From: Gemmatimonadaceae bacterium
GTDB taxonomy: Bacteria; Gemmatimonadota; Gemmatimonadetes; Gemmatimonadales; Gemmatimonadaceae
Direction of reading: 5' to 3'
NCBI GenBank assembly: GCA_019752115.1
Contig: JAIEMN010000010.1
Span: 1-64,000 of the forward strand
Length of the DNA: 64,000 bases
A program made the translations under genes and the position numbers. A model generated the notes under the pieces. The model saw only the letters and a program-made list of their open reading frames with translations. It was not told the origin of the DNA and searched no databases. Shown here one piece after another: positions 18,282-27,892 of the stretch. The stretch's first letter is position 1; every line of letters begins with the position of its first letter.

Positions 18282-19043
18282 ATGGCCACCGGCGTGATCG
18301 ACGCCCGCTCGCCCGAGGAGGCCACCGTGACGGTCCCGCGTGAACCGCGGGAGCGGCCGCGGTGGCTCCGGCTCGTGCGCCTCTCGGCCGCCGTCGTGGC
18401 CGTGGTGGCGGTAGCCACCTCGCCCTGGTGGGGGCCGCGGGCGCTGTCGCGACTTGATTACTTCCACGTCCGGCGGGTGGAGTTCTTTGGCGTGCGCTAC
18501 GCCAAAACCTCCGAGCTGCTCGCCTTGCTCCACGTGGACACCCTGCAGTCGGTCTGGCAGCCCCTGGAGCCGCTGGCGCAGCGACTGCAGGCGCACCCGC
18601 TGGTGCGCACGGTCGAGGTGGACCGCGAACTGCCCGGGCGGCTGTCGGTGCACGTGGTGGAGCGGGAGCCGGCGGCATTGGTGCCGGGTGACGGGCGGCT
18701 GCAGCCCGCGGACGCCGCCGGCCATCTGTTGCCGATCGATCCGGTCCGGGTGCCCCTCGATCTGCCGCTGGCGGCCCAGTCCGACAGTGCGCTGCTGGCG
18801 GTGCTCGATGCCCTCCGGCAGTCGGCCCCGGAGCTGTACGGGCGGATCGTGCAGGCGGAGCGCGTGGGCAAGGAGGAGCTCCGCTTCCGCCTTGGCACCC
18901 TGATCGTCCGGACGACCCCCGACGTGACCGTGGCCCGCTTCAAGGACATATTACCCGTGGAAGCCGACCTCACGCGGAATGCGTTGCGCGTGGTCGAGCT
19001 CGATCTGCGCTTCCGTGACCAGGTGATCGCCCGCCAGCCATGA
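18282..19043 (+). CDS. ftsQ: FtsQ/DivIB-type divisome protein
   Basis: Bitopic membrane protein of 253 residues. It has a charged cytoplasmic N-terminus (PREPRERPRW), a single transmembrane helix (about 31-47), then a POTRA-like domain (about 60-130: FHVRRVEFFGVRYAKTSELL, PLVRTVEVDRELPGRLSVHV) and an FtsQ-type beta domain. Identity is supported by architecture and its place between murC and ftsA. FtsQ links the cytoplasmic and periplasmic parts of the divisome. The ATG directly follows an in-frame TAG that ends a 7-codon mini-frame (18258-18281). The stop overlaps ftsA (ATGA). Confidence 0.88.
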   Translation: MATGVIDARSPEEATVTVPREPRERPRWLRLVRLSAAVVAVVAVATSPWWGPRALSRLDYFHVRRVEFFGVRYAKTSELLALLHVDTLQSVWQPLEPLAQRLQAHPLVRTVEVDRELPGRLSVHVVEREPAALVPGDGRLQPADAAGHLLPIDPVRVPLDLPLAAQSDSALLAVLDALRQSAPELYGRIVQAERVGKEELRFRLGTLIVRTTPDVTVARFKDILPVEADLTRNALRVVELDLRFRDQVIARQP

Positions 19044-20293
19044 GTTCCGAACCCATCGTCGCCGCCCTCGACATTGGCACCGCCCACACGACGGCCCTCG
19101 TGGCCACCGTGCACGGCGATCTGCCGCGCGCCCCGCGCGTGAAGGTGCTCGGGGTGGGGCAGAGCCGGACCATGGGGCTCCGCCGGGGCACCGTGTCGGA
19201 TATCGAGGAGGCTACGCGCTCCATCCGCGCCGCCGTCGAAGAAGCGGTGCGCAATGCGGGCGTGCAGCCCGACGGGCTCTACGTGGGCATCGCCGGCGAG
19301 CACGTGCGCGCGGTGAACGAGCGCGGCGTCGTGGCCATCAGCGGCGATGAAATCACGCGCGCCGATGTGGACCGGGTGAACGAGGTGTCGCGCGCCATGA
19401 CCATTCCGCAGGATCGCGAGCTGCTGCATGCGATTCCGCAGGAATACACGGTGGACAAGGCCGACGGCATCCGCGATCCCGTCGGCATGATCGGCACGCG
19501 TCTCGAGACGGAGATGTATCTCGTCACGATCGGCAGCGCGCCGGCGATGAATCTGCGCAAGGCCATCGAGCGCGCGGGCTATCGCACGCGGGAGCTCGTG
19601 CTCGAGCCGCTCGCCAGTGCGCTGGCCGTGCTCTCCGAAGAAGAGAAGGAACTGGGCGTCGTGCTCCTTGAACTCGGCGCCGGCACCACCGATCTCGCGG
19701 TGTTCCATGAGGGGAAGATCCGCCATCTCGGTTCGTTCCCGTACGGCGGGCACACGGTCACGAGCGATCTCGTGCAGGGGTTGGGCATCACGCAGCATGA
19801 TGCCGAACTGCTCAAGGAAGCGTATGGCTGTGCCTACGAGCCGCTCGTCGATCCGTCGCAGGTCATCGCCATGCCGCCCTCGGGCAATCACGGCGAGCGC
19901 CATCTGTCGCGTGAGCTGATGACGCACATCATCCATCAGCGCATGGATGAGATCTTCGACAAGGTGCAGCGCAACGTGCATCAGGCGGGCTTCACGGGCC
20001 GCCTCAATGCCGGTATCGTGCTCACCGGCGGCGGCGCGCAACTCGAAGGCATCACCGAACTCGCGCAGGACGTCTTCAGCATGGGTGTGCGCGTCGGCGT
20101 GCCGGGCGAAAAGCTCGATGGGCTGGTGGAGCAGGTCGCGAGCCCGTCGCATGCCACGGTGGCCGGACTCGCCCTGTACGGCGCGCATCGCGTGGCGCTG
20201 GGGGGCGTGGTGGCCCGCAAGACGACGCGCAGCGGTGCCGGCGTGGATAAGCTCGCGGGCCGCGTGAAGACCTGGCTGCAGGATTTCTTCTGA
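19040..20293 (+). CDS. ftsA: Cell-division actin-like ATPase FtsA
   Basis: Cytoplasmic actin-fold protein that tethers FtsZ to the membrane. Seen: phosphate-1 loop ALDIGTAHTTALVA, SHS2/1C region, the second ATP loop LLELGAGTTDLAVF, the adenosine motif VLTGGGAQLEGI and a C-terminal amphipathic segment (RVKTWLQDFF) expected to bind the membrane. It has 417 residues. It is last in the forward dcw run: 23 bp downstream an opposite-strand response-regulator gene ends, and ftsZ comes only 6.3 kb later. Confidence 0.96.
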   Translation: MSSEPIVAALDIGTAHTTALVATVHGDLPRAPRVKVLGVGQSRTMGLRRGTVSDIEEATRSIRAAVEEAVRNAGVQPDGLYVGIAGEHVRAVNERGVVAISGDEITRADVDRVNEVSRAMTIPQDRELLHAIPQEYTVDKADGIRDPVGMIGTRLETEMYLVTIGSAPAMNLRKAIERAGYRTRELVLEPLASALAVLSEEEKELGVVLLELGAGTTDLAVFHEGKIRHLGSFPYGGHTVTSDLVQGLGITQHDAELLKEAYGCAYEPLVDPSQVIAMPPSGNHGERHLSRELMTHIIHQRMDEIFDKVQRNVHQAGFTGRLNAGIVLTGGGAQLEGITELAQDVFSMGVRVGVPGEKLDGLVEQVASPSHATVAGLALYGAHRVALGGVVARKTTRSGAGVDKLAGRVKTWLQDFF

Positions 20294-20316
20294 GTCCCGC
20301 GTAGTTCCCGCCCGTC

Positions 20317-21018
20317 TCACCGCACCAGCCGATACCCCGTCTTCCGCACCGTCAGCAGGTGTCGTGGCTCCGCCGGATCCGCTTCGAGTTTGCGCCGCAG
20401 CTCCGCCATGTGCGTATCCACCGTGCGACTCACCACCGACTCGTCGTATCCCCACACCTCGCGGAGCAGGACGTCGCGGGTGACCACCTGACCCACGCGG
20501 CGCAGGAGGGCGGCGAGGAGATCGAACTCCTTGGGACGCAGCGGTACGTCGGCACCGGCGCGCTGCACGGTGCGGAGGGTGAGATCGATCGTGACATCGC
20601 CCAGCTGGTCCACCACGGCGGGCGGCGCCGAGCGGCGGCGACGCAGCAGTGCCTCGACGCGCGCCAGAAACTCGAGCAGCCCGAACGGCTTCGTCACGTA
20701 ATCGTCGGCGCCGTCGCGCAGTCCGCGGACCTTGTCGGCCTCATCCCCCCGCGCGGTGAGAATCAGGACCGGCGCCTCGACGCCCCGCGCGCGCAACGTG
20801 CGGAGTACGGTGAGACCATCCATGCCGGGCAGCATCAGGTCGAGCACGATGCAATCCGGATGCTCGGTAGCCGCCAGTCGCAAGCCGTCTTCACCGGTCG
20901 GCGCCACCAGCACGCGATGCCCCTCGAACTCGAGATTGCTGCGCACACCGGCGGCGAGGAGGGCATTGTCCTCGATCACCAGCACCGTGGCCGTAGTGGG
21001 GAGCGCCATCGTCGTCAC
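20317..21018 (-). CDS. OmpR/PhoB-family response regulator
   Basis: DNA-binding response regulator of 233 residues. The receiver domain shows E16/D17 and phospho-acceptor D60 (VLDLMLPGMDGL); the C-terminal winged helix ends in TVRKTGYRLVR. The GTG at 21018 overlaps the upstream histidine-kinase stop (GTGA), the same coupling style as elsewhere, so it is preferred to ATG 21009. The upstream extension of the frame is non-coding on this strand. Target genes are unknown; a role in envelope or division control is only suggested by position beside ftsA. Confidence 0.93.
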   Translation of the reverse strand: MTTMALPTTATVLVIEDNALLAAGVRSNLEFEGHRVLVAPTGEDGLRLAATEHPDCIVLDLMLPGMDGLTVLRTLRARGVEAPVLILTARGDEADKVRGLRDGADDYVTKPFGLLEFLARVEALLRRRRSAPPAVVDQLGDVTIDLTLRTVQRAGADVPLRPKEFDLLAALLRRVGQVVTRDVLLREVWGYDESVVSRTVDTHMAELRRKLEADPAEPRHLLTVRKTGYRLVR

Positions 21019-22268
21019 GAGGCCCCCTGCGCGGCGAGCGTGCTGGCCATGGGCAGCTCCACGACGAAGCGCGCGCCGCGCCCATCCCGCGCGACCGGTT
21101 CGCACGACACGCGCCCGCCCATCGCTTCGGTCAACGACCGCACGATCATCAGCCCCAGTCCGGCGCCTGTCGCTTCGCCTGCGCGACGCCCCTGGGTGAA
21201 TGGCTGCCAAATGCGCCCCTGATCACCGGGCGCGATCCCCGGGCCTTCGTCTTCCACCGAGAGGCGGACATGCGCCGCGCGCGTCTCGACGCGGGCGGTA
21301 ATGCGCTGCGCGCGTGGGCCATGTTTGACCGCGTTGTCGAGCAGGTTGAGGAGCACCTGCCGCACCGCGTCCGCATCGGCCAGCGCCACGGCGGCAACGG
21401 GCGCATGCACCGCAATCGCCACGTCGCTCGACTCGGCGAGCGGCGCGAACTGCCTGGCCGTGTCCTGCACCAACGTGTCTACGGCGACCGGCTCCTGTCG
21501 CAGCGCCGGCGGGCCCTGCTCGAGGCGCGTGAAGCGCAGCACGTTGTCCACCAGGCGCATCAGGCGCCGCGCTTCCTGCACGATGGCGCCCAGCGCGAGG
21601 GTGCGGTCGGCATCGCTCCGCGTGCGTCCGAGCTGCAGCGTTTCGGCAAAAAGCAGGATCTGGGCCAGCGGCGTGCGCAGCTCGTGCGACACCGCACTCG
21701 CAAAGGTGGAGCGCACGGAGCTCGCGACATGCTCGCGCCGCAAGCGCACGAGCAGCGCACCGCCAATGGTCGTGGTGATCGCGAGCAGCGCCACGACGAG
21801 CGCCATAAGAACCTGCGGGCCGACCGGCGCAAGCGCCACGCCGCCACGCTCCACCGCGCGGTTCACCACGAGCGTGCGGGAGACGCCCTGCACCTGCACG
21901 GGGCGGGTCACGAGGGCACCGGCAATGGCTTGGGTGATGACGGAGGCATCCACGATCCCCGTCGTGGTGGCAGCCGTGGGCATCGAATCCATCGCGACGT
22001 GCAGCCCCGTGCTGTCCGCGAGCGCCCGCAGATCGGGGCGCGAGGCCAGCGCGCCGGCCAGGGTGCCCCCCGACGTGACCAGCGGCGCGAGTTCGGCGAC
22101 CACCACGCGCGCGGCCGCGCGCTGAAGTTGCATCGTCGCCTGTTGCTGCAGGCGCGCCAGCCCGAAACAGGCGAGCACCAGCCACAGGAGCAGGCCAACG
22201 GTGAGCGAGACCAGCACCGTGAAATCCGTGCCGGCCGAGCGGAACGCGCGGGAAGCGGGGACGAGCAT
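21015..22268 (-). CDS. Sensor histidine kinase
   Basis: Partner kinase of the downstream response regulator, 417 residues from ATG 22268, which has GGAG 6 bp upstream. Two membrane helices (about 14-38 and 160-180) flank a periplasmic sensor region of about 120 residues with no recognised fold. No clear HAMP is seen. HisKA has the phospho-accepting His in AVSHELRTPLAQ. The HATPase domain has the N box NLLDNAVKHGP and the G boxes VEDEGPGIAPGD and GAGLGLMIV. A TTG start at 22316 would add 16 residues and is less likely. The signal sensed cannot be read from the sequence. Confidence 0.92.
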   Translation of the reverse strand: MLVPASRAFRSAGTDFTVLVSLTVGLLLWLVLACFGLARLQQQATMQLQRAAARVVVAELAPLVTSGGTLAGALASRPDLRALADSTGLHVAMDSMPTAATTTGIVDASVITQAIAGALVTRPVQVQGVSRTLVVNRAVERGGVALAPVGPQVLMALVVALLAITTTIGGALLVRLRREHVASSVRSTFASAVSHELRTPLAQILLFAETLQLGRTRSDADRTLALGAIVQEARRLMRLVDNVLRFTRLEQGPPALRQEPVAVDTLVQDTARQFAPLAESSDVAIAVHAPVAAVALADADAVRQVLLNLLDNAVKHGPRAQRITARVETRAAHVRLSVEDEGPGIAPGDQGRIWQPFTQGRRAGEATGAGLGLMIVRSLTEAMGGRVSCEPVARDGRGARFVVELPMASTLAAQGAS

Positions 22269-22487
22269 CAGCAACTCCGGGCCAGAGGCGGGGCGCCCGA
22301 CGCGCCCTCTGGTCAAGAATGCAGCGCCGGGCCGCCCCCGGAAGTGCGAATTGTCCGAATTCCGTCAGAACGAACTGAGGCGTCCCCTTGCCGAACGGCA
22401 CTCCCGCCTGCTGCGTACTCTCAGGGTTCCCCCGCGTGGCGTGCGACTCGGCGCGCTGCGCTCCCATTCGCCCCTTGGAGCATTTCC

Positions 22488-25358
22488 GTGACCCTTGCCG
22501 GCAGCTTGCGGCGGACCGCGATCGGCGCCCTCGCCCTCGCCCCGTTGACCGTCTCGGCCCAGCAGCTTTCGCTGGATACCCGCGATCCCAACCAGAAGCA
22601 GGACTCCACCTACTTCAAGAGCTACCAGGAGTGGCTCGCGAATCCGAAGCACGGGAGCCCGCTGGTGGATCACCTGCCGCTGGCGGACGGGATTCCGACG
22701 CCGCGGGACGTGCTGGGCTATCACATCGGTGCGCCGCGCAAGCTCACCTACTACGCCGATCAGCTGAAGTACTACCGGGCGCTCGAGAAGGCGGCGCCCA
22801 AGCGCGTGAAGGTCGAGACCATCGGCAAGTCCGATGAGGGGCGTGAGCTGGTCGTGGTGTGGATCTCGAGCGAGGCCAACATGGCCAAGCTCGACCAGAA
22901 CCGGAAAAACCTGGCGAAGATCGCCGATCCGCGCGGGATGACCGACGCGCAGGTCAAGACGCTGCTCGCGCAGACCAAGCCGCACTATCACCTCATGGGT
23001 GGGCTGCACAGCGGCGAGACCGGGCCGTCGGAAACGCTGATGGAGCTGGCGTACCGTCTCGTCGTCGAAAGCTCGCCCATTCTGAATCAGGTGCGTGACC
23101 AGCTCTACGTCTCCATCACTCCGGCGGCCGATGCCGACGGACGTGACCGGAACGTGGACTGGTTCTTCCGTGGCCTCGAGGCAGCGCCGGCGGCTGGCAC
23201 GCCGGGCGGCGGTGGCTTCGGCGGCGGTGGCGTGCCGTACTGGGGCAAGTACGTGTACCACGACAACAATCGCGACATCAACATCAAGCTCCAGCAGATG
23301 CGCGCGATCATCGATTGGTATTTCACGGCGTATCCGCCAATCATGCACGACCTGCATGAGGCGCAGCCGCTCATGTACACGTACACGGGTGGCCCGCCGC
23401 AGAACCCGAATCTGGATCCGATCCTCTTTGCCGAGCTCCCCTGGTTTGGCAACTGGGAACTCGCGCAGATGACGAAGTGGGGCATGCCGGGCGTCTACAC
23501 GCACGCCTTCATGGACGGCTGGTCGCCTGGCTACCTCGGCTCGGTCGCCTACAATCACAACGGGCTCATGAAGATGTACGAGACCCAGAGTGGTCGTGAC
23601 CTCGACAGCGCGGCCATGGCAGCGGCGCGGCGCGGTGAAGCCCCGAGCGCCGGTGGCCCCGGCGGTGGTGGTGGCTTTGGCGGCGGGCGTGGTGGCGCTG
23701 TGCCGACCGGCCGCGGCGGCGCGCAGGACCGCGAGTGGTACCGTGGCAATCCGATCGGCTTCAACGACATGGCCACGTTTACCCGACGCTCGAACGCGAA
23801 CTACATGCAGAGTGGCGTGATCTCCGCCTTGCAGCTGGCGAGCATGTTCCCGCAGACCGTGCTCGAGAACTTCTACATCAAGACGAAGAACAGCATCGAG
23901 GAAGGGAAGACCAAGGCGCCGTACGGCTTCGTCATCCCGGTGCAGAAGGACATGACGCGCGTCGCCGAATTCGTAAACCTGCTGCGCGTGCAGCGCATCG
24001 AGATCGGGCAGGCGACGGCGCCGGTGAAGGTCGGCAACACCACCTATCCGGCCGGCTCGTACGTCATCAAGCGCGACCAGCCGTACGGCCGCTTGGCGAA
24101 GAATCTGATCGAGCGGCAGCAGTATCCCGATGCGCGCCTCAACACGTACGACGACAGTGGCTGGTCGATGGGCCTCGCCATGAACGTCGATGTGGTGGAG
24201 GTCGCCGACAAGAGCATCCTGGCGGCGCCCACCACGCCCGTCGACAAGATCGTCCTCAAGGGCACGGTGAAGGGCACGAGTGGCAACACCATCGCCGTGG
24301 CGCATCTTGGCTCCAACAACATGGTCGCCTTCCGCTATCTGCTGAAGAGCATTCCCATGAAGGTCGCCGAGAAGAGCTTTGCCGCGGGCGACACGACGTA
24401 TCCCGCCGGGTCATTCCTCATCGAGGCCAAGCACGCCACGGTGGTTCGCAAGCTGGTCGATTCGCTCGGCCTCACGGCGACCTATCTGGCCAGCGCCCCC
24501 ACCGTGGCCACGCACGACGCCGACGTGCCGCGTGTGGCGATCTACTCGCAGTGGAGCGGGACGCAGAACCTGGGCTGGTACCGCCTGACCTTCGACGAGT
24601 TCAAGATCCCGTACGACCTGATCTACAAGGAACGCGTTGTGCTGGGGAACCTGAAGAAGGACTACGACGTGATCCTCGTGGCCGAGCAGCCGCTCGGGAA
24701 GACGCAGGTCATGCAGGCCCCTGCGTCGCGCGCCGTGCCGTACGTGAAGAGCGACAAGTACAAGTTCCTCGGCATGTACGGAGAATCGAAGGACATCACC
24801 GGCGGCTTCGGTCAGCCGGGCGTCGATGCGTTCGCAAGCTTCCTCGAAGCCGGTGGCACGTTGATCGCCGTGGGCGAAAGCGCGCGGTTGCCGATTGAAT
24901 TCGGCTGGGCGCGCACGGTCGATAAGACGAACGTCCCCGGGCTCACGGCGCAGCGGCCGCTGGTGGATGCGGAGATCACGCGCCCCGAACACCCGGTCTT
25001 CTACGGCTTCGGCAAGACCGTGATTCCCGTGAAGTACGTCGGCGGCACACCGTTCAAGGTCGGCATCGCCGACGAAGGCAACGTGCTCGCCAAGTACGTC
25101 GGTGGCGACAAGAGCGTGCTGTCAGGGCTCATGACCGGCGCCGACTCGCTGCGCAATCGGCCCTTCGCGGTGGACATCCCCAGCGCCGTGAAGGGGAAGG
25201 GGCGCGTGATCATGTTCGCCAACAACCCGATCTATCGGTGGCAGAACCACGGCGAGTTCAACATGATCTTCAACAGCATCATCAACTGGAACGACGCGGG
25301 GGCGGCCAAGGAAGAGAAGCCGGCCGTCACGAACACGCAGGTGCCGCGCGGGCGGTAG
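22488..25358 (+). CDS. Secreted M14-family zinc carboxypeptidase-like protein
   Basis: A large (956-residue) exported peptidase. GTG 22488 has GGAG 7 bp upstream and begins a clean signal peptide (cleavage near TVSAQQ); the frame is open far upstream, but that part is antisense to the kinase. The M14 domain (about 85-480) shows the zinc pair H174/E177 in GGLHSGETG, the RD pair in NNRDINIK and a third His in MHDLHEA (H287 or H290). Two glycine-rich inserts (about 239-248 and 370-395) interrupt it. The C-terminal half (about 500-950) includes a region resembling glutamine-amidotransferase-like folds seen in related secreted M14 proteins. Probably periplasmic or extracellular; substrate unknown. 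It is transcribed alone and ends in a terminator. Confidence 0.9.
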   Translation: MTLAGSLRRTAIGALALAPLTVSAQQLSLDTRDPNQKQDSTYFKSYQEWLANPKHGSPLVDHLPLADGIPTPRDVLGYHIGAPRKLTYYADQLKYYRALEKAAPKRVKVETIGKSDEGRELVVVWISSEANMAKLDQNRKNLAKIADPRGMTDAQVKTLLAQTKPHYHLMGGLHSGETGPSETLMELAYRLVVESSPILNQVRDQLYVSITPAADADGRDRNVDWFFRGLEAAPAAGTPGGGGFGGGGVPYWGKYVYHDNNRDINIKLQQMRAIIDWYFTAYPPIMHDLHEAQPLMYTYTGGPPQNPNLDPILFAELPWFGNWELAQMTKWGMPGVYTHAFMDGWSPGYLGSVAYNHNGLMKMYETQSGRDLDSAAMAAARRGEAPSAGGPGGGGGFGGGRGGAVPTGRGGAQDREWYRGNPIGFNDMATFTRRSNANYMQSGVISALQLASMFPQTVLENFYIKTKNSIEEGKTKAPYGFVIPVQKDMTRVAEFVNLLRVQRIEIGQATAPVKVGNTTYPAGSYVIKRDQPYGRLAKNLIERQQYPDARLNTYDDSGWSMGLAMNVDVVEVADKSILAAPTTPVDKIVLKGTVKGTSGNTIAVAHLGSNNMVAFRYLLKSIPMKVAEKSFAAGDTTYPAGSFLIEAKHATVVRKLVDSLGLTATYLASAPTVATHDADVPRVAIYSQWSGTQNLGWYRLTFDEFKIPYDLIYKERVVLGNLKKDYDVILVAEQPLGKTQVMQAPASRAVPYVKSDKYKFLGMYGESKDITGGFGQPGVDAFASFLEAGGTLIAVGESARLPIEFGWARTVDKTNVPGLTAQRPLVDAEITRPEHPVFYGFGKTVIPVKYVGGTPFKVGIADEGNVLAKYVGGDKSVLSGLMTGADSLRNRPFAVDIPSAVKGKGRVIMFANNPIYRWQNHGEFNMIFNSIINWNDAGAAKEEKPAVTNTQVPRGR

Positions 25359-25382
25359 TGCGCGGGGCATGGCCAACGATGC

Positions 25383-25414
25383 AAACGGGCGCCTCCAAAG
25401 GGCGCCCGTTTTGT
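25383..25414 (+). terminator. Rho-independent terminator
   Basis: 11-bp stem AAACGGGCGCC (25383-25393) with GGCGCCCGTTT (25401-25411) and a 7-nt loop, followed by TGTC; the stem's own TTT supplies part of the U-tract. It ends the M14 peptidase transcript. Confidence 0.85.
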
Positions 25415-25488
25415 CGTCGGCAGCGATGACCATAAAAAAGTGCCACGCCCTTCACCACGCTCCGTCCCCAGGTCATGCACCGCCCTCT

Positions 25489-25575
25489 GGGATGCCTAGG
25501 ATGACTGGGATGCCTGGTGACCTGCAGTTCTCTCACGCCTCACCGCTCACCTCTCACGATCTCACATCTCACGCC
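25489..25575. repeat. Degenerate short-repeat tract at a convergent junction
   Basis: An imperfect direct repeat (TGGGATGCCTAGGATGAC followed by TGGGATGCCTGGTGAC, about 25488-25521) runs into a string of TCTCAC/CTCACG units (about 25530-25572). The tract reaches the 3' end of the ceramidase gene, covering its stop and last codons. It lies between two genes that point at each other and has no coding look. Confidence 0.55.
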
Positions 25576-26239
25576 GTCGCTCCGCGACCGCCGAGAAGCG
25601 CGCCCAGGCCAGCCACGCCGCGACCGCCGACCCGATGTGCCAGAGCGCATGTCCCTGCAGCAGCGAGTCCGGCGTGCACCACCAGCGCAGCAGATCCAAC
25701 GTCCAGATCACGAACGATGCGCCGAGCACGAGGAGGGCGGGCACGAGCGCGCGCCGTTCCGATGGCGTGGCCAGCAGCACCGTGCACATGACGAGAGCCG
25801 CGAAGACGTAGCGGCGGAGTTCCGGCACCAGCACCAGGCCGCTCAGCAACACGCTGTTCGCCAGCACATACAACACGGCGACGCGCCCGCTACGCCAGGC
25901 GAAACGGCGCGCGAGGATCGCGAGCACGAACCAGGTCACCACCAGATACATGCCGAGGACGTCGGCGGTCTGCGTGGCAAAGGTCAGCGTCGCGTGGAAG
26001 GCGAACGACGCCGCGCCCACGAGCAGGACGGCCAGCGCATAGAGGCGATCACCGCCGCCCCGGCTGCGCGCGAGCACCAGCAGCGCGACGCCCACGAAGG
26101 CCAGGTTGCTCAGCGCGTTGGATGGCTGGAGCAGGGGCCCGGCGTCCGGCGCGGTCCGCGGGGCCTCGCAGAAACAGTGATCGGGCCAGCAGCTGGCCGG
26201 GGAGACCGGCACGCCGGCGGGAGGCAAGAGATCGGGCAC
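25562..26239 (-). CDS. Alkaline ceramidase-like membrane hydrolase (CREST family)
   Basis: A 225-residue protein with about seven membrane helices. It carries the full CREST active-site set: D20/E25 in PDHCFCEA, QPSN(A)LSNLAF (38-48), S78 and H82 in ASFAFHA, D93, and H197/H201 in GHALWH. The spacings S-4-H, H-11-D and H-4-H equal those of human ACER3 (S77, H81, D92, H217, H221), where the three His bind zinc. It is therefore predicted to hydrolyse the amide of ceramide or a related lipid. It is divergent from ftsZ, with 378 bp between. Whether this organism makes sphingolipids cannot be told from the window. Confidence 0.85.
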   Translation of the reverse strand: MPDLLPPAGVPVSPASCWPDHCFCEAPRTAPDAGPLLQPSNALSNLAFVGVALLVLARSRGGGDRLYALAVLLVGAASFAFHATLTFATQTADVLGMYLVVTWFVLAILARRFAWRSGRVAVLYVLANSVLLSGLVLVPELRRYVFAALVMCTVLLATPSERRALVPALLVLGASFVIWTLDLLRWWCTPDSLLQGHALWHIGSAVAAWLAWARFSAVAERRREM

Positions 26240-26343
26240 GTCGGGAATATGACGGGCGCATCAGACGGAGACATCACATCCGTGCGAGGCGCACATGTCA
26301 GCCGGTGCATCCAATGTCACGCGAGCGCGAAAACGGTGCCTGA

Positions 26344-26352
26344 TGTGGATAA
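26344..26352 (-). promoter_or_regulatory. DnaA box (exact TTATCCACA)
   Basis: The forward sequence TGTGGATAA is the exact complement of the consensus 9-mer DnaA box TTATCCACA. It sits about 70-100 bp upstream of the candidate ftsZ promoter. DnaA binding is inferred from the match alone. Confidence 0.55.
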
Positions 26353-26419
26353 CTCGCCACCCGAAAACGGACCGGCCCGGAGCGTGATGAAATCCGCCAA
26401 GTTGCGTCAAATCCACGGG

Positions 26420-26447
26420 TTGCGCGGCACGAACGAACGTGTATTCT
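26420..26447 (+). promoter_or_regulatory. Candidate ftsZ promoter TTGCGC-N16-TATTCT
   Basis: TTGCGC (26420-26425) and TATTCT (26442-26447) are separated by 16 bp, in the gene-free region upstream of ftsZ. Transcription from here would leave a long leader of about 165 nt. Pattern match only. Confidence 0.4.
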
Positions 26448-26617
26448 AGGGTGGTTCGGCCTGTAGTCTCCGCTCCGTCCACATTTGCACATCCCGCCGG
26501 CAGCGCGGACCACCAATCCCGGTGGTGCTCGCCGCGCCGGCTTCAGGGCCCGGTTCCCTCCCCGGGTTCTGCGACCTCCACCCTGTGCCCGCCAAGCCCC
26601 GTATGGAGCTCCCCCGG

Positions 26618-27892
26618 ATGACGTTCGAGTTCGAAGAGAACGCCCCTCAGAACGCCCGCATGAAGGTCGTGGGTGTCGGGGGCGGCGGCGGCAACGCCGT
26701 GAACCGCATGATCGAGGAACACCTCGAGGGTGTGGAGTTCATCTCGGTGAACACCGACGCGCAGGCCCTGATGAACTCGAAGGCCGACGTCAAGATCCAG
26801 ATCGGTAAAAAGCTCACGCGCGGCCTTGGGGCCGGCGCGCGCCCGGAGATCGGGCGCCAGGCCATCGAGGAGAATCGCGAGGATGTGAAGCGCGTCATCG
26901 GCAACGCCGATCTCGTCTTCGTGACCTGCGGTATGGGCGGCGGCACCGGCACCGGTGCCGCTCCCGTCGTCTGCCAGCTTGCCCGCGAAGCCGGCGCCCT
27001 CACCGTCGGCATCGTCACGCGCCCCTTCCTGTTCGAAGGGCGCAAGCGCATGCGGCAGGCCGAGGAAGGCATCAGCGAGATGCGCAAGAATGTCGACACG
27101 ATGATCATCGTGCCGAACGAGCGCCTGCTTGCCGTCGTCGGCAAGGGGATTCCGTTCCACGAAGCGCTCAAGAAGGCCGACGAAGTGCTGCTGCACGCCA
27201 CTCAGGGCATCTCGGTGCTGATCTCCGAGACGGGCCTCGTGAACGTCGACTTTGCCGACGTCCGGACCGTCATGGCGAACGGCGGCTCGGCGCTCATGGG
27301 CACCGGCATCGGCCGTGGTGAAAATCGCGCGGTGGAAGCCGCGCAGCAGGCGATTGCCTCGCCGCTGCTCGACAACGTCTCCATCTCCGGCGCCACCGGC
27401 GTCCTCGTGAACATCACCGGCGGCGAAGACCTCACCCTCGGCGAAGTCCACCAGATCAACGACATCGTGCACGATGCCGTGGGCGACGACGCGGAAATCA
27501 TCTTCGGCGCCGTCCACGAGCCGGCCATGATGGGCGAGATCCGCGTGACGGTCATTGCGACCGGTTTTGACCGCTATATGCAGACGGGCACCCCGGCCGC
27601 CGAGACCCGCGGCGTGGGCCACCCGGTCAGCCACGGCGGCCATCAGAGCTTTGCCCCTTCCGCCGGCCAGCCGGCCGGGGCATCTTTGCCTCCTGCCGCT
27701 GCCAAGCAGCCCGGCTCGGTTCTGCCGTTCCCCCGGCCGACGAGCGGGAGACCTGCCAACCAGCCTGCTCGTCCAGCACCGTGGGAAGGGGCGCCGCCTC
27801 GGCCGCCCCGGGTTCCGCCGCCAGCGCCGTCATCGAGCACCGAGTTCGATGACATGGAAATCCCGACGTTCATACGGAGACAGATGGATTGA
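26618..27892 (+). CDS. ftsZ: Cell-division tubulin FtsZ
   Basis: GTPase that polymerises into the division ring. From ATG 26618 (GGAG 9 bp upstream; ATG 26603 is the alternative) it has 424 residues. Nucleotide-binding [10 protein letters not shown] (19-28) and the tubulin signature GGGTGTG (107-113) are intact, as is the T7-loop NVDFADV. A Pro/Ala-rich disordered linker (about 335-410) leads to the C-terminal peptide [14 protein letters not shown], the expected FtsA-binding tail. It is separated from ftsA by 6.3 kb, and its stop overlaps the TTG of the next gene (TTGA). Confidence 0.98.

Follow-up and report, generated by a model that had tools for sequence, protein, structure and literature searches.

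Does a ceramidase-like gene beside ftsZ mean that a bacterium turns over sphingolipids of its own, in step with cell division? The question is raised by an open reading frame on the minus strand (25562..26239) of a 64,000-nucleotide stretch of Gemmatimonadaceae DNA (contig JAIEMN010000010.1; the window). An earlier note on this DNA described a ceramidase-type active site encoded there. Both the reading frame and the site are confirmed, and the score against PF05875 lies far above chance. The gene encodes a 225 aa protein, assigned by Pfam and by a structure model to the PF05875/CREST intramembrane hydrolases and termed the hydrolase below. Its GTG start is the first start codon past an in-frame stop located 8 codons upstream. 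PF05875 (Ceramidase) matches the protein with E 8.3e-14 and 52 bits, which passes the Pfam gathering cut-off of 32.5, and is the only Pfam family over its cut-off. PAQR and SID-1 families are absent among the Pfam matches at E ≤ 1, and an NCBIfam search with the protein returned no family. At E ≤ 0.001, the window gene is the only PF05875 match in its own genome. Composition gives no sign of a recent foreign origin: both GC (0.71) and GC3 (0.89) match those of six neighbours (0.65-0.72 and 0.84-0.89, respectively). Phage records searched with the hydrolase yielded no match.

The closest solved structure is that of human ACER3. A single-sequence phmmer search of the hydrolase against the PDB gave no match at E ≤ 1. 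With a profile built from 10 sequences (the window protein and nine homologues), ACER3 (6g7o) tops 14 matches with E 4.6e-7. A structure model was predicted from a three-sequence alignment comprising the window protein and homologues from Minicystis rosea (L002) and a viral contig (L091). It has seven helices, a mean pLDDT of 71.9 and a pTM of 0.65; four other models were less confident (53.8-63.7). The seven helices come from this model, since a plain hydropathy scan yields overlapping or missing segments. In a Foldseek search of the model against the PDB, ACER3 ranks first (E 2.2e-4) and is the sole one of 238 matches with E ≤ 0.001. Likewise, VIA-align finds ACER3 to be the best solved match (Z 18.2, rmsd 3.5, 212 residues), followed by the adiponectin receptor AdipoR1 (6krz, Z 15.4; adiponectin receptors overall 13.6-15.4). 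The best SID-1-type chain reaches Z 13.9, and unrelated seven-helix receptors reach 14.0 and lower. Helical bundles obtain middling Z values by default. The relationship to ACER3 is therefore accepted because ACER3 leads the unrelated structures and the profile match agrees. PAQR/adiponectin receptors and SID-1 share the CREST fold with the hydrolase, but score below ACER3.

CREST proteins are defined by an SxxxH motif ending TM2, an Asp opening TM3 and an HxxxH motif opening TM7 (PMC3146951). The model of the hydrolase has the seven core transmembrane segments and places S78 and H82 in helix 62-84, D93 in helix 87-113 and H197 and H201 in helix 196-224. Thus, it shares with ACER3 the seven helices and the order S-x3-H, D, H-x3-H, although identity amounts to only 20-21% in the structural alignments by Foldseek and VIA-align.

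All five catalytic or zinc residues claimed earlier are present at the positions given. The SxxxH...D motif with the codons for S78, H82 and D93 (25961..26008, minus strand) aligns by profile to the S, H and D of 6g7o, and the HxxxH motif with H197 and H201 (25637..25651, minus strand) to the HxxxH of 6g7o. The spacings, described as identical to those of ACER3, are so inside the motifs (S+4=H, H+11=D, H+4=H); the distance from D to the first His of HxxxH, however, is 104 versus 125 and thus 21 residues shorter in the hydrolase. H82, D93, H197 and H201 are invariant in 12 of 12 sequences including the window, and S78 is found in 11 of them. The exception is the homologue of genome G176 (L074), which has Thr at the S78 place of SxxxH and intact His and Asp residues. 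In ACER3, the replacements H81A, D92A, H217A and H221A abolish activity, and S77A retains about 0.17% (PMC9436119). Catalysis is ascribed to a Zn-bound water activated by the Asp (PMC9436119; PMC6303388). If these roles carry over from ACER3, H82, H197 and H201 would hold Zn2+, D93 would activate the water and S78 would stabilise the oxyanion. Fold and catalytic residues are common to the hydrolase and the ceramidases; this does not imply a common substrate.

The unexpected part is a missing calcium site combined with extra cysteines. ACER3 binds Ca2+ by D19, the backbones of W20 and E22, N24 and E33; D19WCE(X)N24 and 32AEF34 are reported to be strictly conserved among ACERs, and ACER3 carries a C21-C196 disulfide (PMC6303388). 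The counterpart of this loop is an N-terminal lid extending from C17 to Q38 (C17, C22, C24, E25, P27, Q38; 26126..26191, minus strand). It lacks the ACER calcium site: D19, N24 and E33 are replaced by C22, P27 and Q38, and the lid reads C22-F-C-E-A-P27. Q38 was aligned to E33 by the profile, whose alignment to ACER3 begins at ACER3 residue 27; C22-F23-C24-E25-A26-P27 lies outside it and was matched to D19-W20-C21-E22-x-N24 by motif (W-C-E to F-C-E). Among 12 sequences, Asp never occupies the D19 place and Asn never the N24 place; at the E33 place, 11 sequences have Gln and Minicystis has Glu. When five plasmid homologues are added, Glu occurs at the E33 place in 3 of 17 sequences, namely Minicystis and two from Paracoccus. 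Both Paracoccus proteins, which keep E33, have an Asp one place off D19.

Like C21 and C196 of ACER3, C24 and C188 of the hydrolase could form a pair. C188 (codon at 25676..25678, minus strand) is situated near the end of helix 6 and is the proposed counterpart of C196 by position only, as both are unaligned in the profile alignment. It co-occurs with C24: in 15 scorable of 17 sequences, both are Cys in 13 and neither in 2 (G364 and the IMG/VR contig). For the extra cysteines C17 and C22, the same 15 sequences in one alignment give both in 10 and neither in 5, gaps counted as absent; this concordance is alignment-dependent, and in another alignment the Minicystis Cys meets C22 while the C17 place is not Cys. 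The cysteine counts leave out two Hymenobacter rows with short annotated N-termini, which as annotated break the pairing: both have C188 but lack C24, and one has C17 but lacks C22. In Rhodococcus, the protein starts only around the C17 place. Close relatives among the rows (two Hymenobacter, two Paracoccus, G069/G298) mean that the counts reflect few independent changes.

Through the second pair, C17/C22, the D19 place is occupied by a cysteine, and a second disulfide replacing calcium is our reading of these sequences. The lid, which is ordered by Ca2+ in eukaryotic ACERs, would then be held by the predicted disulfides C24-C188 and C17-C22. Tentatively, this can be extended to a whole bacterial branch of the ACER family: it might have swapped the Ca2+ site for a second disulfide (D19 to C22, paired with C17). 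The result would be an intramembrane lipid amidase that faces the periplasm, is constitutively ordered, needs no calcium and acts on an acyl-amide lipid in organisms without sphingolipids. If the exchange of calcium for a disulfide is true, the catalytic core of the family is separable from calcium control. In that case, a bacterial model would be at hand for asking about the substrates of such enzymes and the reason why human ACER3 is destroyed by E33G.

On which side of the membrane would this site lie? In 17 of 17 sequences, the density of K+R is lower on the side of the N-terminus and active site and higher on the opposite side, with segment borders chosen by the author. In the window protein, the counts are 3 of 48 versus 9 of 29. 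According to the positive-inside rule, the charge-poor side lies outside the cytoplasm. The charge distribution and this rule together place the lid and the active site outside the cytoplasm, so that both would face the periplasm. For the eukaryotic enzymes, PMC6303388 has the N-terminus of ACER3 on the cytoplasmic side; in contrast, the ACER2 data cited in PMC3146951 place the active site on the lumenal side. With a site facing the periplasm, an acyl bond, most likely an amide, would be cut in a lipid accessible through the periplasmic leaflet or from the exterior. The preference for amide over ester is an analogy drawn solely from the resemblance to ACERs; Per1, a member of the same CREST superfamily, is a phospholipase A2 (PMC3146951).

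Taken together, the protein is probably a lipid hydrolase. The explanation we favour, and consider somewhat more credible than its opposite, is that of a bacterial CREST (PF05875) hydrolase that is calcium-independent, stapled by disulfides and faces the periplasm, and that cuts acyl bonds within the membrane by means of Zn2+. Its substrate would not be an own ceramide made through serine palmitoyltransferase (SPT), and its gene would be accessory, patchily distributed and outside the division machinery. The earlier note predicted a working ceramide or acyl-amide hydrolase. What is supported is a Zn-hydrolase whose fold is that of alkaline ceramidases and whose catalytic site is intact; since the Ca2+ ligands needed by ACER3 are absent, ceramidase activity is not to be taken for granted.

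The patchy distribution can be given in numbers. PF05875 exceeds its cut-off in 2 of 30 genus genomes (G000 and G007; genomes 57-99% complete), and a match in G027 remains below it with 18.5 bits. The hydrolase is found in 8 of 395 genomes of a phylum sample and in 7 of 394 genomes of a class sample searched with the profile. These counts characterise the gene as accessory.

Own sphingolipid turnover, as proposed in the earlier note, presupposes sphingoid-base synthesis, and a search for SPT had been suggested there as a check. The TIGR01825 profile, which also matches BioF and Kbl, has two strong matches in the own genome. The first is kbl, encoding glycine C-acetyltransferase (NF005394, 489.2 versus a cut-off of 460), directly behind the threonine dehydrogenase gene tdh. 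The second is bioF (434.8 versus 426.45), directly before bioA. The SPT model NF047599 gives 295 bits for kbl, 276 for bioF and 28 and below for the rest; its cut-off of 500 is passed in 2 of 14 control genomes. Thus, the TIGR01825 and NF047599 searches of a 97% complete genome found no SPT, and with kbl and bioF as the only strong matches from the alpha-oxoamine-synthase family, the superfamily of SPT, the proposal of own sphingolipid turnover is not supported. Bacterial PF05875 genes are annotated as 'ceramidase domain-containing protein' together with a GO term for ceramide metabolism. The window gene illustrates that the 'ceramidase' label is poor evidence of sphingolipids: an intact catalytic site occurs in a genome in which no SPT was found.

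Other carriers may differ. In four of nine carriers searched (G069, G176, G306, G362), NF047599 yields about 400 bits, under the cut-off and above kbl. To go by these scores, the four may make sphingolipids, and an own ceramide may be the substrate there. SPT-like genes (NF047599, E ≤ 1e-105) are present in 155 of 395 phylum genomes versus 4 of 8 hydrolase carriers, at a threshold that is not SPT-specific, as the E. coli control also passes it. All comparisons over 395 genomes rest on three separate searches assumed to cover the same sample. Co-occurrence with SPT was discarded as a guide to the substrate: presence of the hydrolase does not track SPT-like genes in the phylum.

Among the alternatives, a true ceramidase acting on external ceramides survives best and is a possibility to be kept in mind, if an unlikely one. 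The ceramides would come from soil eukaryotes or sphingolipid-making bacteria, so that the enzyme would serve scavenging instead of own turnover. The intact ACER catalytic site, the predicted periplasm-facing position, the patchy distribution and the failure to find own sphingoid-base synthesis all agree with it, but the Ca2+ ligands required by ACER3 are absent.

A less probable alternative is turnover of an N-acyl amino-acid lipid made by the bacterium itself and akin to ornithine lipids. In the own genome, an OlsB-like and an OlsA-like gene are adjacent (locus L089, 384-2142). NCBIfam names them best as L-ornithine N-acyltransferase, at 144.8 bits, and as lyso-ornithine lipid O-acyltransferase, at 118.4 bits, yet both scores lie under the equivalog cut-offs of 350 and 300, respectively. 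An OlsB-like gene occurs in many genus members, which suggests lipids of the ornithine-lipid type in the genus. In the phylum sample, OlsB-like genes (E ≤ 1e-25) are found in 48 of 395 genomes, in 46 of which no hydrolase gene was seen, and in only 2 of 8 carriers (G000, G056). Therefore, a lipid of the ornithine type is a candidate in this genome, but can hardly be the substrate in general. As a guide to the substrate, OlsB co-occurrence was dropped, since nothing is gained from these numbers.

The genes around homologues point several ways as to function. Some contexts touch on lipids. In G056, the start of a YhhN gene overlaps the end of the hydrolase gene; YhhN has no match in the own genome. 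In a contig listed as viral (IMGVR_UViG_3300010167_000049; L091, 1833-4181), a homologue with 29% identity adjoins a lipase-like gene (PF24708), and about 2 kb away lies an ORF which, read by eye, resembles a phage-type integrase. The homologue of Paracoccus liaowanqingii is accompanied by a fatty acid desaturase and an M20 peptidase. Lipids are not a theme in the surroundings of the homologues of Paracoccus alcaliphilus (transport and IclR genes), Leptospira and Hymenobacter. The 'Ceramidase domain-containing protein' WP_109022480.1 of Leptospira kobayashii (31% identity over 93% of the query) resembles the window protein in its CFCE...RQPxN lid and its catalytic residues; it differs in being encoded on a plasmid, pE30-1, where it adjoins genes for a TonB receptor and an HmuY-family protein. 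On Rhodococcus opacus pCP54 (L103, 6915-7841), a predicted NDM beta-lactamase label in PLSDB and a metal ABC transporter substrate-binding annotation conflict over a near-identical span.

Two Hymenobacter plasmids carry homologues annotated as ceramidase-domain proteins (L101, 4073-4705; L102, 3926-4570). These are located in a cluster resembling metal resistance, with efflux RND, a heavy-metal-associated domain protein, a metal-sensing repressor and a multicopper oxidase. This cluster, together with the fold that AdipoR and SID-1 share, could be taken to mean that the protein belongs to the receptor-like or metal-homeostasis members of CREST, or that it is a Per1-type phospholipase, and not an amidase. 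We regard this as improbable: with 26-30% identity to the three query homologues, the Hymenobacter proteins are distant, no such cluster was seen beside the window gene, and the ceramidase family provides both the closest fold and the only Pfam match over cut-off.

In the literature, bacterial hypothetical groups 1 and 2 of CREST were found to group with the alkaline ceramidases, and a test for ceramidase activity was suggested (PMC3146951). The window protein is likewise a bacterial protein with affinity to alkaline ceramidases; the cysteine and calcium-site pattern, however, has no counterpart in the passages of PMC3146951 considered here. Apart from PMC3146951, no paper on bacterial PF05875 proteins was found among the titles and abstracts listed in searches of the open-licence literature; PMC4602095 concerns the PAQR-type YqfA of E. 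coli and not PF05875.

The position beside ftsZ remains to be explained. The hydrolase gene is indeed divergent from ftsZ (26603..27892, plus strand), with 26240..26602 between the start codons as called (ftsZ start at 26603). A promoter and terminator scan of 26240-26602 detected no sigma-70-like or terminator-like site. The ftsA gene (19040..20293, plus strand) forms the other end of a variable interval. In the window, ftsA and ftsZ (19040-26603) are about 6.3 kb apart and separated by four genes: those for a response regulator (minus strand), a histidine kinase (minus) and an M14 zinc carboxypeptidase-like protein (plus), which occupy 20317..25358, and the hydrolase gene. M14 was named by Pfam, the response regulator and the kinase from their translations.

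Is the arrangement conserved? ftsZ was found in 27 of 30 genus genomes, and 25 of the 26 other loci were compared (L034, being a fragment, has no upstream DNA and was excluded). The ftsZ-proximal DNA of the window aligns in all 25 loci, and none of them has the hydrolase gene. In 13 of 25, a single alignment begins at window positions 26395-26414, so that the upstream region of ftsZ is retained in loci that have no hydrolase gene; for the 155-174 bp of the intergenic region on the hydrolase side, the loci of these 13 relatives gave no match. In the other 12, the main block begins at 26575-26579 and is mostly coding. Among the genomes read, adjacency to ftsZ occurs only in the window genome.

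The second copy in the genus, that of G007, is located 2 kb behind ftsA in the same orientation as in the window, with metallo-beta-lactamase-fold and epimerase-like genes in between. Its contig ends before ftsZ. The 994 bp of contig sequence available before ftsZ in G007 lack the hydrolase gene. The hydrolases of the window and of G007 are 44.5% identical, ftsA and ftsZ of the same two genomes 82-83%. This difference speaks against simple vertical descent; it does not prove separate arrivals. A tree of 12 hydrolase sequences leaves open 7 of its 9 inner branches and does not settle whether the copies of G000 and G007 are sisters.

With these data, it has become very improbable that the protein is a working ceramidase for own sphingolipid turnover co-regulated with ftsZ, as the earlier note suggested: the intact catalytic residues, the divergent arrangement and the G007 copy behind ftsA speak for it, but no SPT was found in the genome, no copy over the cut-off occurs in 28 of the 30 genomes of the genus, the ftsZ-side DNA is conserved without it, and ftsA and ftsZ were not seen in the 3.7-17 kb read around seven other copies in the phylum. 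From the gene orders compared, we conclude that the ftsA-ftsZ interval takes in accessory genes, and that functional coupling of the hydrolase to division is unsupported. Given the G007 position behind ftsA, the place may not be pure coincidence, though the interval varies widely in the genus.

The gap between ftsA and ftsZ is at most 414 bp in L081, L082 and L087. M14 alone was matched in L078 and L080, and response regulator, kinase and M14 together in L077, L083 and L088. Further genes within the interval encode an amino acid permease in L077 and L083, a protein kinase in L084 and, again in L083, a PEP-CTERM protein. With ftsA and ftsZ almost adjacent in some genomes and several kb of differing cargo between them in others, the interval resembles an insertion slot within the division cluster.
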